52,822 bases of DNA from the NCBI RefSeq assembly GCF_028692895.1, contig NZ_JAQUWN010000020.1, positions 5,491-58,312 on the forward strand, given 5' to 3'. Source of the DNA: Pseudodesulfovibrio sp. (GTDB lineage Bacteria > Desulfobacterota > Desulfovibrionia > Desulfovibrionales > Desulfovibrionaceae). Positions 1 to 43,632 of this stretch are shown here, in pieces; position 1 is the stretch's first letter; each line of letters starts with the position of its first letter. The position numbers and the translations under genes were made by a program. The notes below the pieces were generated by a model, which saw only the letters and a list, made by a program, of their open reading frames with translations, searched no databases and was not told the DNA's origin.

Positions 1-826
1 GCTGCGAAAAGGGCGCACCCTCGCGTATTGAGATACGCGTCGGCCGCGCCCTTTTCTTGCGCCTTGCGCTTGCCCACGCCTACTGCTTCAGGGTCTCGCG
101 CGGGCGCGCGGCGGGGAGGAAGAGAAGAAAAAGAGGGGCGCACCCTCGCGTATTGAGATACGCGTCGGCCGCGCCCTTTTCTTGCGCCTTGCGCTTGCCC
201 ACGCCTACAGCTTCAGGGTCTCGCGCGGGCGCGCGGCGGGGAGGAAGAGAAGAAAAAGAGGGGCGCACCCTCGCGTATTGAGATACGCGTCGGCCGCGCC
301 CTTTTCTCGGGCCTTGCGCTTGCCCACGCCTACTGCTTCAGGGTCTCGCGCGGGCGCGCGGCGGGGAGGAAGAGAAGAAAAAGAGGGGCGCACCCTCGCC
401 TATCGGGATACGCGTCGGCCGCGCCCTTTTCTTGCGCCTTGCGCTTGCCCGCGCCTACTGCTTCAGGGGCTCGCGCGGGCGCGCGGCGGGGAGGAAGAGA
501 AGAAAAAGAGGGGCGCACCCTCGCGTATTGAGATACGCGTCGGCCGCGCCCTTTTCTTGCGCCTTGCGCTTGCCCACGCCTACTGCTTCAGGGTCTCGCG
601 CGGGCGCGCGGCGGGGAGGAAGAGAAGAAAAAGAGGGGCGCACCCTCGCGTATTGAGATACGCGTCGGCCGCGCCCTTTTCTTGCGCCTTGCGCTTGCCC
701 GCGCCTACTGCTTCAGGGTCTCGCGCGGGCGCGCGGCGGGGAGGAAGAGAAGGAAAAGAGGGGCGCACCCTCGCCTATCGGGATACGCGTCGGCCGCGCC
801 CTTTTCTCGCGCCTTGCGCTTGCCTT
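1..826. repeat. Tandem array of a 125-bp hairpin-bearing unit (about 6.6 copies)
   Basis: Near-identical units follow one another with an exact 125-bp period. The inner palindrome CGCGTATTGAGATACGCG (7-bp arms, TGAG loop) starts at 22, 147, 272, 397, 522, 647 and 772. Copies at 397 and 772 carry the variant CGCCTATCGGGATACGCG. In the first unit the palindrome sits inside a second stem, AAAAGGGCGC at 7-16 with GCGCCCTTTT at 46-55. Later units keep GGGCGC/GCGCCC with a purine-rich left arm. The rest of each unit is a GC-rich CGCG tract and a purine tract (GAGGAAGAGAAG). The array is cut by the contig start and loses identity near 826. Units are contiguous without unique spacers, and 125 is not a multiple of three, so the open frames crossing it are not genes. 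The core resembles the elements at 14984-15097 and 24368-24543. Confidence 0.95.
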
Positions 827-4159: not shown

Positions 4160-5398
4160 TTACTCCACGAAGTTGTAGGAATGATGGGACCAGTACTCCA
4201 CGTCCGGGCTGATCTTCAGCATGCCCAGCTCCTGTCCGCACTCCACCAGCAGGACCACCGTGAAGAAGGCCACGATGAGCCAGCCCAGGAAACGCCTGCG
4301 CGACCCCGGCGCGCCCTGCTTGATGAGCAGGACTCCCGGCAGGATGCCGAACAGGGTGCCGATGCCAAGGCCGCCCACCACGTTCAGGGCGCCAAGGAAG
4401 CCGTTGGGATAGAGCACGCCCACGAGGAGCGGCGGCATGAAGGAGAGCAGCCAGACGGCGCAGCGGCTGCGCAGCCGCTCGCCGGACACGTCGCGGATGA
4501 AGCTCATCAGCCCCGCGCCCGTGCCCATGTAGGATGTGGACATGGCCACCACCGAAAAGGCGATGGACACGTTGACGAAGACCCTGGAGTGGATGAGCCG
4601 GTTGAGCGGCACGGTTGCGGGCAACCCGGCGTTGAAGGCGTGGATGATGTCCACGCCCGAGGAAGACTCCACGGGCAGGGTCAGAAGAACGGCGATGGTC
4701 CAGCTCACGGTCATGAGGAACCCGATGCCCGAGCCGAGCCAGATGGCCTTGTTGATGGCCGCCCGGTCGTTGTTCAGGCTGTGGCAGAGCGTGGGCACCA
4801 CGTTGTGGAAGTTGAAGGCGACCACCAGGATGGGCAGGCCGGAGGTGAAGAAAGACATATCCATCCCCCCCGGGTCCACGCCCTCGAAATGGGGCACGAC
4901 AAGCACCAGCAGGAGGGCGAAGAGCACCCACATGGCGACCATGAGGATGGCGTTGCCCCGCCTGAGAACCGCGTCACCCAGGCTGGTCAGCAGCGTGATG
5001 ACGCAGAAATAGATTATCAACACGCCCCACTCGGGCAGCGGGACGTGGAAGGACTGCACGGCCACGGTGGAGACTCCGGCCAGGTAGGCCGTGAGCAGGC
5101 CGTAGAGGATGAGCAGGTTGGCCGCCACGCTGAACCATTTCCCGGCCTTGCCCAGCACGGATTCGAAGAGCGAGGGCATGTCCGCGTTCTCGTTCTGGAC
5201 AAGAAAGGGCTGGCGGGAGATGATAAGCCCCGTGCAGGTCATGACGAACCAGACGGCCACGGCCCCGCACAGGGCCGGGATGAAGCCGGACGGTCCGAGA
5301 TTGACGGGCAGGGCCAGGATGCCCGCCCCAACCATGTAGCCGGTGAGAACCAGGGCGGTGGACACGATCTTTGAGGCGGGAGGCGTATCGGCGGACAT
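4160..5398 (-). CDS. Aromatic/hydroxy amino acid permease family (HAAAP) transporter
   Basis: The 412-aa membrane protein has about 11 hydrophobic segments. Its N-terminus, [19 protein letters not shown], is the substrate-binding first helix of the Mtr/TnaB/TyrP (HAAAP) group of proton-coupled amino-acid symporters. It is the first gene of a two-gene unit with aspA, with 3 bp between its stop and the aspA start. This suggests import of an amino acid that feeds the lyase, although known HAAAP members carry aromatic amino acids or serine/threonine rather than aspartate. Substrate is therefore open. ATG at 5398 has a GGAG upstream. It diverges from typA; the 176 bp between them should hold both promoters, but I cannot place a convincing -35/-10 pair there. 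Confidence 0.85.
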
Positions 5399-14921: not shown

Positions 14922-14983
14922 GGAGTTCCTCCGTATTGCGAATTTCCGCCAGCCTAGCAAGCCATCGGAAAAAGGAAAAGGGC

Positions 14984-15097
14984 ATACTGTTCAAAAAAAC
15001 GGCGGATGCAAGACGCCCCAAAAAGTTCAACCCCGAAGCGTACTCCCGTGCGTGCGGGCTCGAACTATTCGCAGCAACGCCGCAGATCGCCGCTTCC
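14984..15097. repeat. Dispersed hairpin element, degenerate copy
   Basis: This stretch, in the rubredoxin upstream region, aligns with the element at 24368-24543. Both have an ACTGttcAAAAAaaCGGCG-like left end, AAAAAGTTCAA (15020-15030), the core CGAAGCGTACT (15034-15044), a partly complementary right arm TCGAACTATT (15060-15069), GCAGC, and the right-end word CGCAGATCGCCG (15081-15092). The right terminal repeat has decayed and the spacer before it is shorter. The stem pairs 8 of 10 positions. It may affect rubredoxin or downstream transcription, but nothing shows this directly. Confidence 0.75.
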
Positions 15098-15189
15098 CGG
15101 GAGCCTGCTAAAACCCGCAAGCGGCCGCCCCTTCCCCTGGCCGGGCAAACAAGGTAGGCTCGGGCCAACCCATCCCGCCGGAGGATACC

Positions 15190-24287: not shown

Positions 24288-24367
24288 GCCTCTCGCTCCC
24301 CCGTCCGGGGAAGCGGTTTCCATGTTTTTTGGAAGCGTTACCAACCCATTGGCAAAATCCAAAACAC

Positions 24368-24543
24368 AGACTGCCTAAAAATGGCGAGATGCTAGGCGCA
24401 AAAAAAGTTCAAGGCCGAAGCGTACTTCCTGCACGCGAGGGTTTGAACTTTTTTGCAGCATAACCGGGTCATAAGATCTTGTACGGCTCGAAGACTCGCC
24501 TACAATTCACTTAACGACGCAGATCGCCGTTTTTAAACAGTCT
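24368..24543. repeat. 176-bp hairpin element with terminal inverted repeats (MITE/REP-like)
   Basis: The ends are inverted repeats: AGACTGCCTAAAAATGGCGA at 24368-24387 and, on the other strand, AGACTGTTTAAAAACGGCGA at 24524-24543, matching at 17 of 20 positions. Inside, AAAAAAGTTCAA (24401-24412) pairs perfectly with TTGAACTTTTTT (24443-24454) around a core CGAAGCGTAC...GCACGCGAGGGT. A further unpaired stretch with ATAAGATCTTGTAC follows. There is no open frame. The element sits between the TPR gene and the orphan gene whose stop codon begins at 24547 on the minus strand, 2 bp beyond the element. The same core is in the copy at 14984-15097 and, with different stem arms, in the tandem array at 1-826. 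Confidence 0.88.
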
Positions 24544-24544
24544 G

Positions 24545-24925
24545 TTACGCCAGTTCGATGACGAGCGGAATGGCGTGGGTGGTGCGGTTCACCTCATGCG
24601 TGGCCCCGACGGACCAGGAACCGGCCGCGCGGCCGACCACGGCCGCTAGCCTCTCGGCCAGACCGGCCAGGTCGATGATCGGATGGCGGGAAAACACCGT
24701 GGGCAGCCCGTAGGTCAGGTTGCAGGCCAGACACCGGCCCGGCCGCTGGATCAGCTCCAGCTCGAAGTCGATGGCCTCGCCGTCGTCGTCGCGGTAGCGC
24801 AGGGCGATGTCGTAGCTGCCCTCCTCGGCGTCGCCGAAGAGCGCCTCGAAGAACTGGTCCGTGCGCTCGGCCGGGAACAGGGCGGCCAGGGTTTCCTCGG
24901 TGAATTTCTCTGCGTACTTGGCCAT
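24545..24925 (-). CDS. Conserved-looking hypothetical protein of about 126 aa
   Basis: I cannot assign a function. The 126-aa protein is soluble, with no signal or membrane segment. It begins AKYAEKFTEETLAALFPAERTDQFFEALFGDAEEGSYDIALRY, followed by FELELIQRPGRCLACNLTYGLP with a CLAC pair, and ends ATHEVNRTTHAIPLVIELA. The even composition and conserved-looking RPG and HPIIDL stretches suggest a real small domain of the kind found in Desulfovibrio genomes. ATG at 24925 has GAGGAG eight bases upstream. The minus-strand frame stays open upstream to 25855, but that part is antisense to the DUF401 gene. It is followed directly by the repeat element. Confidence 0.75.
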   Translation of the reverse strand: MAKYAEKFTEETLAALFPAERTDQFFEALFGDAEEGSYDIALRYRDDDGEAIDFELELIQRPGRCLACNLTYGLPTVFSRHPIIDLAGLAERLAAVVGRAAGSWSVGATHEVNRTTHAIPLVIELA

Positions 24926-41730: not shown

Positions 41731-43632
41731 CTAATTGTCCAGATAGACGAATCGCTTGATCTTGTGGGTGGGCGTCTTGTCGAAGGGCTCAACCTGCTCG
41801 CGCACGCGGGCCACCCTGGCGAAGGAGGAGACCTTGGCGTTGACTTCCTTGCGCACCTCCTCCAGCACGGCCTCGACCTTCTTGCGCACGTCGGACTCGA
41901 TCATTCCGTTGACCCCGAAGGCCTCGTCCAGGGCGTCGTAGTTGAGATGGATGCGGGCGCAGACCTGGCCCTCGGCCTCGTAGACCAGGGATTCTCCCAC
42001 GTAGGCGTGCTCGTTGATGATGGACTCGATCTCCTCGGGATAGATGTTCTCCCCGCTGGGACCGATGATGACGTTCTTGAGCCTCCCCTTGATGTAGAGG
42101 AAGCCGTCGTCGTCGAACACGCCGAGATCGCCGGTGCGAAGCCAGCCGTCCTCGGTGAAGGTCGCCTCCGTGTCCTTGGGCGCCTTGTAGTATTCGCGCA
42201 TGATGTTCGGCCCCTTGGCCAGAATCTCGCCTTCGCCCGTCGCCGGGTCGGGGTCGGCGATCATCAGCTCCACGCCGGGCACGGGCGGGCCGATGGCCCG
42301 GAACCGCTGGCGGTCCTGGCTGACCCCGGCGAGCAGCGGCGCCGCTTCGGTCATGCCGTAGCCGATGGCGTAGGGCACGCCGGAATCGGCCAGGAAGGAC
42401 TCCACCTCGGGCGAGATGGCCGCCCCGCCGATGCACAGGCAGCGTATCTCGCCGCCAAAGGCCTCCATGAGCTTCCTGCCGGCGATGCGCGACGCCTTGC
42501 GCCGGGCCGGGCCCAGCTTGAGCACCGCGCCGACGATGCCTTTGGCGTCCAGCTTGGGCTTGATGCGCTTCTTGTAAATTTTCTCGATGATGAGCGGCAC
42601 CACGTTCATGACCGTGGGCCTGACCCGCTCCATGGCGGGCAGCAGGCTCTTGGGCGTGGGCGGCTTTTGCAGGAAAGAGACGGACGAGCCGCACATGATC
42701 GGAATGATGAGCCCCACGGTGCACTCGTAGGTGTGGGACATGGGGAGCACGGACAGGAAGCGGTCGGTGGCTAAGACCGGGATGGTGCGCACGCCCGATA
42801 CCGCGTTGGAGACCAGGTTGCCGTGGGTCAGGACCACGCCCTTGGAATGGCCCGTGGTGCCCGAGGTGTAGAGGATCACGGCGACGCTGTCCGAAGTGAG
42901 CTGAAATTCCTTTTCCTTCTTCCCGTCCGGCTTGGCGAAGCGGCTGCTCAGCCTGTCGAACCGTTCGCCCATGGACTCGCTCAGCTTGTCGAGCCGCTCG
43001 CCCATGGACCCGCTCAGCTTGTCGATCCGCTCGCCCATGGACTCGCCCAGCTTGTCCAGCTTGCCGCTGATGGTCTGGCCGAAGCGGTCGTTCAGTTCGT
43101 CCAGGGCCCGCCCCACCTTGCTGTCGATGAGCTTCTTGGCCGACTCGCTGAAGTGCTCGAACCGCTCGCGAGCGGCCTCAAGGGCTTCGTCGAAGCTGGT
43201 CTTGGGCGCGTCCTCGTTGACGATGGAGAAGTCGTCCATGACCATGACGGTCTTCAGGTGGGGCAGCCCCTCGCCCTCGACCTTCTCCATGTAGCGGTTG
43301 GAGGCCACGGCCAGCTTGGCCTCGGAGTGGCGCAGGATGTGGAGCACGGCGCTGGCGTGGAATTCCTGCAGGATGGGCACTGCGATGGCCCCCATGGAGG
43401 TGACGGCGAAATAGGTCACCGCCCAGTGGGGCATGTTCTCGCCGATGATGGCCACCTTGTCGCCCGGCCGGACGCCGTGCCCGCACATGAGGGTGGCCAC
43501 GTCGCGGACCATTTCCAGAAAACGGGCGTAGGTGATGGGCTGGCCGCCCACGAAGCTCAGGGCCACGCGGTCGGCATGGGCGGCCACCGAGCCTTCCAGC
43601 AGTTGCTTCAGGGTTGATGGTTGGTCGGTCAC
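41731..43632 (-). CDS. AMP-forming acyl-CoA ligase with an inserted 11-residue-repeat coiled coil
   Basis: The 633-aa protein is an ANL-superfamily ligase: P-loop ILYTSGTTGHSKGV, IGYGMTEAAPLLAG, GWLRTGDLGVFDDDGFLYIKGRLKN and the C-terminal catalytic lysine region near KTPTHKIKRFVYL. It activates a long-chain or other fatty acid with ATP and CoA. About residues 180-236 hold an insertion made of four near-copies of an 11-residue unit (LDKLGESMGER, IDKLSGSMGER, LDKLSESMGER, FDRLSSRFA), a likely coiled coil, encoded by a 33-bp tandem repeat at about 42940-43062. GTG at 43632 is chosen for the strong ribosome site GGAGGAACCC just upstream. Substrate unknown. Confidence 0.9.
   Translation of the reverse strand: MTDQPSTLKQLLEGSVAAHADRVALSFVGGQPITYARFLEMVRDVATLMCGHGVRPGDKVAIIGENMPHWAVTYFAVTSMGAIAVPILQEFHASAVLHILRHSEAKLAVASNRYMEKVEGEGLPHLKTVMVMDDFSIVNEDAPKTSFDEALEAARERFEHFSESAKKLIDSKVGRALDELNDRFGQTISGKLDKLGESMGERIDKLSGSMGERLDKLSESMGERFDRLSSRFAKPDGKKEKEFQLTSDSVAVILYTSGTTGHSKGVVLTHGNLVSNAVSGVRTIPVLATDRFLSVLPMSHTYECTVGLIIPIMCGSSVSFLQKPPTPKSLLPAMERVRPTVMNVVPLIIEKIYKKRIKPKLDAKGIVGAVLKLGPARRKASRIAGRKLMEAFGGEIRCLCIGGAAISPEVESFLADSGVPYAIGYGMTEAAPLLAGVSQDRQRFRAIGPPVPGVELMIADPDPATGEGEILAKGPNIMREYYKAPKDTEATFTEDGWLRTGDLGVFDDDGFLYIKGRLKNVIIGPSGENIYPEEIESIINEHAYVGESLVYEAEGQVCARIHLNYDALDEAFGVNGMIESDVRKKVEAVLEEVRKEVNAKVSSFARVARVREQVEPFDKTPTHKIKRFVYLDN

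Follow-up and report, generated by a model that had tools for sequence, protein, structure and literature searches.

Short, non-coding repeats that carry terminal inverted repeats and direct repeats and lie between genes in many copies are described in prokaryotes as MITEs. The nearest named one to the family reported here is Chunjie of Geobacter uraniireducens, which we liken to it as described in a review (PMC10969869). The two share all these traits; unlike Chunjie, given there as 178–235 bp, our element is a nested hairpin with free arms, occurs in many genera of its phylum and forms tandem arrays. The multicopy palindromic sequences of Geobacter metallireducens are likewise intergenic multicopy families of a sulfur/metal-reducing lineage, compared here by description (PMC2700814). 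REP/BIME elements are also extragenic palindromes able to cluster. A further comparison concerns a process: template switching is a published way for one complementary arm to be copied from the other (PMC8794818), and such mutations in hairpins make and repair stems by reverse-complement copying, giving multi-base compensatory changes (PMC8794818, PMC8604942). The former paper, by its abstract, deals with RNA genes; here template switching would act on a mobile repeat and reach gene ends.

The window, a stretch of 52,822 nucleotides of a Pseudodesulfovibrio genome, opens with a tandem array of such hairpins and holds two dispersed copies of the same element. The best fit to the evidence, to which we give a probability of roughly 0.6, is a transposed hairpin that underwent template-switch copying between its arms and was then duplicated in tandem. 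Roughly one in three of the phylum's sampled genomes carries the repeat family, and literature searches, with subscription papers and supplements mostly outside them, returned no description recognisable as this family.

The array occupies 1–826 on the plus strand. TRF delimits it to 11–824, with a period of 125 bp, 6.5 copies and 96% matches, and seven hairpin cores start at 11, 136, 261, 386, 511, 636 and 761. The core of the first unit (1–67, plus strand) reads GCTGC, arm GAAAAGGGCGC, loop-side words, arm GCGCCCTTTTC and TTGCGCCTTGC, and is followed at 68–93 by an outer right arm that is an inverted copy of the 3′ end of the upstream gene together with its TAG stop. As the original prediction had it, there are two unit types: the variant unit at 386–510 and the last, partial unit at 761–824 carry the inner word GCCTATCGGGATACGC, which breaks one inner pair (C.C) without compensation and comes with loop changes. 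Modelled as single-stranded DNA, 126–210 folds better than its own shuffles (z −3.36); a shorter stretch with the variant, 385–450, does not (z −0.63).

The array sits between two convergent genes. Upstream is the gene of a small glycine-zipper protein (4809–5243 of the contig, C37), and downstream, at 950–1750 on the minus strand, a gene with DPBB_1 (lytic transglycosylase) and SPOR domains, presumably RlpA-like by its domain make-up. The first array unit starts upstream of the window, immediately 3′ of the TAG of the glycine-zipper gene. Directly upstream of the window lie 100 N, and the sequence ends flanking them overlap exactly over 127 bases; window 1–127 is therefore probably the first unit again. 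The assembly would then contain this unit twice, and the number of units is uncertain. The word CTCGCGCGGGCGCG, at 95–108 on the plus strand, recurs in the second array of the source genome (C30), and a word search of 243 loci met it in none but those spanning the two arrays; CTCGCGCGGGNGCG lies 3′ of the right arm in both arrays (95–108 and repeats in the window; 631–644 of locus L029), and only the eight loci covering the C37 and C30 arrays hold it among the 243.

Dispersed element 1 was originally placed at 24368–24543. The element is there, and its extent is larger: 203 bp on the minus strand, 24342–24544, between copies of TTAC, as read from the sequence and an R1 match. These target-site duplications are perfect on both sides; the one at 24338–24341 reads GTAA on the minus strand, and that at 24545–24548 includes the TAA stop of a minus-strand open frame. 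Within the element, between CGTT and GCTGC, lies a 53-nt insert (24460–24512, minus strand). Dispersed element 2 (150 bp, 14958–15107, minus strand) was recognised by an R1 match; in the minus-strand reading it is flanked by TTAG (15108–15111) and CTAG (14954–14957). The words quoted earlier for the array and for the reverse complement of 24368–24543 are present as written (GCTGC, ACCCTCGCGT, TACGC-TCGGCC and TTGCGCC are common to both), and the complementary stem arms differ in sequence between the two.

The array and both dispersed elements of the window are one hairpin family. Covariance model R1 was built from an alignment of 73 copies (A1), some from arrays of other genomes and none from the three arrays of the source genome. 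It nevertheless scores the first array unit (5234–5353 of L028) at 106 bits (E 5.4e-26) and the two further arrays of this genome, C30 and C77, at 103 and 86.5 bits; the relatedness of array and dispersed elements was thus borne out. BLAST with the array and with the 24368–24543 element gave overlapping sets of sites in the source genome and located the C30 and C77 arrays along with 12 single copies, two of them in the window. Other arrays of the element occur in genomes G004, G022, G027 and G035. R1 matches to single copies and to arrays agree with the earlier statement that the hairpin family both disperses and expands in tandem. A consensus query found the family in 29 of 36 Pseudodesulfovibrio genomes, and R1 matched 93 of 297 sampled genomes of the phylum, from 66 of 199 genera.

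Searches outside this range gave little. Plasmid and phage collections held no family match, nor did viral contigs, the latter searched with one pattern. An Eggerthellaceae record, one of 32 pattern matches, was judged to be chance and has no R1 match at E 1e-6. At the gathering score Rfam yielded tRNAs only, one of them in the window and another among 20 further loci; at a lax threshold, the array gave weak matches to unrelated families only.

By its anatomy, as read from the sequence, the element is a MITE. Complete copies measure 148–151 bp from left end to right flank in nine loci picked for matching flanking 4-mers. From the outside in, a copy has the left terminal repeat CAGRCYGTTGAAAAA, an outer stem, unpaired words, a middle stem of free sequence and an inner hairpin. 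The conserved unpaired words are approximately GYCGTTGCTKC on the left and GCGCCTWGCA on the right, and the inner hairpin is GCGTAC-loop-GTACGC with unpaired CTC/TTC. At the right end stand an inverted copy of the left repeat, about ten bases, and the right terminal repeat. Terminal inverted repeats are present in 44 of 67 loci, where the left outer repeat is accompanied by a right one agreeing in 11 or more of 15 letters, and the terminal-repeat pattern had 52 matches in four genomes against one for the reversed pattern. Copies of 148–151 bp have no coding capacity, nor has the array unit, whose 125 bp is not a multiple of three.

Identical 4-bp flanks were counted in 11 of the 44 loci with a right repeat, a count that leaves out the 23 of 67 loci lacking one; the permutation mean was 2.9, and none of 5000 permutations was as high. 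The flank is CTAG, TTAG, CTAA or TTAA in 21 of 44 loci on the left and 18 of 44 on the right. Insertion at YTAR means that copies often lie directly after stop codons: a stop triplet directly precedes 34 of 63 loci, 32 of these being TAG or TAA, and 24 of the 34 stops close a frame of at least 70 codons. At the one locus searched for an empty site, L083, genome G002 lacks the insertion and its joined flanks align continuously at 87% identity, the TTAA itself not being conserved.

Two inserts met in other copies deserve mention. One is GC-rich, about 80 bases long (ACAAATCCGCAGG...GGGGTGAGCCCC...GGGGCGAATC), and interrupts the left middle arm of L041 (C29, source genome) and of L173, L179 and L181 of P. 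pelocollis. It occupies the same place in the two species and may be another repeat family that is carried along within this one. Another copy of the source genome, L039 (C73), has an insert of about 60 bases in its right arm.

A palindromic, extragenic element in many copies invites comparison with REP/BIME-type elements mobilised by a Y1 (RAYT) transposase, as the original prediction proposed. Y1 (PF01797) does occur in 17 of the 36 genus genomes, two of which, G022 and G024, are rich in the element. However, it is absent from 13 of the 15 genus genomes with at least 19 element matches, the source genome included, and present in six of the seven genomes without the element. Our element is also larger than REP/BIME and has a 4-bp target duplication, which is not expected of Y1 transposition. 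We therefore rejected a REP/Y1 origin, which has become scarcely credible. Searches for Y1, PF13751 and PF01609 yielded no mobiliser for the element: PF13751, which we take to be IS1182-like, was in none of 16 genomes searched, and PF01609, presumably IS4/IS5-like, in three of 14. Duplications of the YTAR kind are, on our assumption, linked to the IS5 group. Exact pattern matches in four genomes, inspected by eye, contained no pair of terminal repeats at the distance of an insertion sequence.

The paired stem changes are real. In the genus alignment A1, 94.5% of cells pair, against 86.7% when shuffled and 40–48% with partners slid, and both sides have changed in 24 of 35 pairs (13.0 shuffled) and in 171 cells (41.5 shuffled), with none of 500 shuffles as high. 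The phylum set, 19 copies aligned to R1 and hence biased towards the model, has 86.0% of its cells paired against 67.2% shuffled, and both sides changed in 30 of 35 pairs (17.7 shuffled) and in 127 cells (36.6 shuffled). Related sequences can beat shuffles without any structure; the slid controls keep the relatedness and pair only 32–48% of cells. The observation that the arms differ and yet stay complementary by changing together holds in genus and phylum alike. Fifty shallow comparisons contained 27 double Watson–Crick changes, where about 1.9 would be expected if the sides were independent, besides 10 other double changes and 124 single changes, the latter exceeding the 27.

The original prediction read these changes as what selection on a folded DNA or RNA would give. 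In that reading the element functions in folded form, either as RNA or as single-stranded DNA to which a protein binds, and its arms are held complementary by compensatory point mutations; strong covariation combined with near-invariant unpaired motifs, in genus and phylum sets, speaks for it. However, an RNA transcribed from the modelled strand should tolerate G.U better than A.C, and there is no preference for G.U on that strand. Mismatches in A1 number 79 A.C and 68 G.U (66 and 41 without two odd columns), and in the phylum set 25 A.C and 12 G.U, with 12 and 1 in the outer stem alone. Since A.C is as common or commoner, selection on such an RNA is not favoured. The excess is mild (p 0.02 and 0.05, from cells that are not independent), and a minus-strand RNA under selection would account for it as well. 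The lack of Rfam matches at the gathering score apart from tRNAs, in the window and the 20 further loci, also counts against a structural role, as do arms apparently overwritten as blocks and gene ends that serve as stem. The paired changes themselves stand, and selection on a folded RNA is neither required nor favoured as their source; a single-stranded DNA or a minus-strand RNA could possibly be what selection acts on. Overall we consider structure selection a possibility of clearly minor weight. The paired changes look more DNA-borne than RNA-selected, and the observation is sound, its reading as selection probably too hasty.

Apparent overwriting of arms is seen at six loci in six genomes, where the normally unpaired CTC/TTC is fully complementary; reversed-pattern controls gave none. 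Five look like copies of the left arm and one like a copy of the right arm. All six lie in recognisable family context, although L235, L236 and L243 have one degenerate side. Counted outward from where the motif begins, the arms pair perfectly over 15 bases in L233 and over 3, 15, 7, 3 and 3 in the others. One locus, L117/L237, is located at a contig end; its arms are not complementary throughout, which makes a fold-back artefact unlikely.

Copying beyond the element is suggested by the arrays. In all three arrays of the source genome the outer stem is an inverted repeat of the flank: 23, 23 and 21 of 30 positions pair with the array's own left flank (23 for the array of the window), compared with 11–13 of 30 for the flanks of the other arrays and a shuffled maximum of 18 in 6000. 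In C37 and C30 the repeated stretch takes in the last part of an open frame, stop codon included; the flank of C77 adjoins a tRNA-Gln gene and may or may not be host sequence. A coding sequence ending in ...GVWHLK(Q/E), or in something close to it, was recognised at 28 of 30 loci with orthologues of the C37 gene, its own included and two having been missed by the script, which makes the downstream inverted copy the derived one. Dispersed copies have weak complementarity past their ends, two bases deep (39 of 72 against 30.7, and 22 of 72 against 13.6; five of the 77 copies, with poorly matched ends, were dropped). A deep extension into their flanks was therefore rejected, the signal being only weakly above chance.

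Our preferred reading, transposition followed by template switching and tandem duplication, would run as follows. Copies would be moved in trans by a transposase into YTAR sites, often at the end of a stop codon. The hairpin may then promote template switching during DNA replication, in which one arm serves as template and the other is replaced by its complement. At the array locus such a switch would have continued past the border of the element and into the gene end, leaving the last bases of the gene, inverted, in place of the right terminal repeat, and tandem duplication would have multiplied the modified unit, in what we infer to be that order. Template switching between arms produces paired changes with no need for RNA selection, and it accounts for the kinds of mismatch, the double changes, the overwritten arms and the outer stems that copy flanks. 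Most copies keep the unpaired motifs, which implies that such copying happens seldom or that the motifs themselves are under selection.

Intrinsic termination offers another reason for keeping the hairpins, which would serve in both directions through the order A-tract, stem, loop, stem, T-tract. In favour of it, convergent frames enclose both the array and element 1, and the array has six minus-strand terminator-like sites against 1.3 in shuffles; by eye, many other species have an ordinary hairpin and T-run at the gene end where the array sits. However, element 2 is placed between two outward-reading frames, and the 63 loci, classified by a longest-frame rule, comprise 17 convergent, 32 same-direction and 14 divergent cases, so that gene ends are not over-represented; the left-hand frame points at the element in 31 of 63 loci and the right-hand one in 35 of 63. 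A GC stem followed by a T-tract is present in many genus copies and absent from many phylum copies (by eye, uncounted), and many of 18 phylum copies, also inspected by eye, have no A/T tracts beside the middle stem. Given the lack of location bias, we discarded a terminator role as the reason for spread, and maintenance as two-way terminators seems improbable to us. The predicted minus-strand sites in the array might, as a by-effect, act on the convergent gene.

Covariation usually counts as the strongest sign that an RNA structure is functional. Its clear occurrence in 73 genus and 19 phylum copies, alongside several signs of DNA-level copying, would make the family a natural test case for separating the two. 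The family also suggests a way for a mobile hairpin to pick up a host gene's end in inverted form and go on to multiply in tandem. A bolder version, which we regard as doubtful, has a mobile hairpin spread across the phylum, with arms regenerated by local template switching from the DNA at the landing site, host genes included; the unpaired motifs would be its only inherited identity, and the covariation would be the record of a DNA process and not of RNA function.

Other genomes add to the history of the array. Judged by eye, related cores with other arms stand at the orthologous gene end in G004 (L140) and, though not as clearly, in G031 (L134); R1 matches L140 at E 5.5e-5 and leaves L134 unmatched. 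The insertion may thus predate the tandem growth in the source genome. In the G035 array adjacent units differ in their complementary arms (GCTCAA/TTGAGC against GGGCAG/CTGCCC), and a single mismatched hybrid unit also occurs, which suggests that units can also exchange halves.

A diverged counterpart of the 53-nt insert of element 1 is present at L140, the site in G004 orthologous to that of the array, and the insert could possibly represent a long form of the element. Apart from the hairpin family, the window has a 33-bp tandem repeat of 3.4 copies at 42946–43056; 33 bp being a multiple of three, this repeat possibly lies within a coding region.
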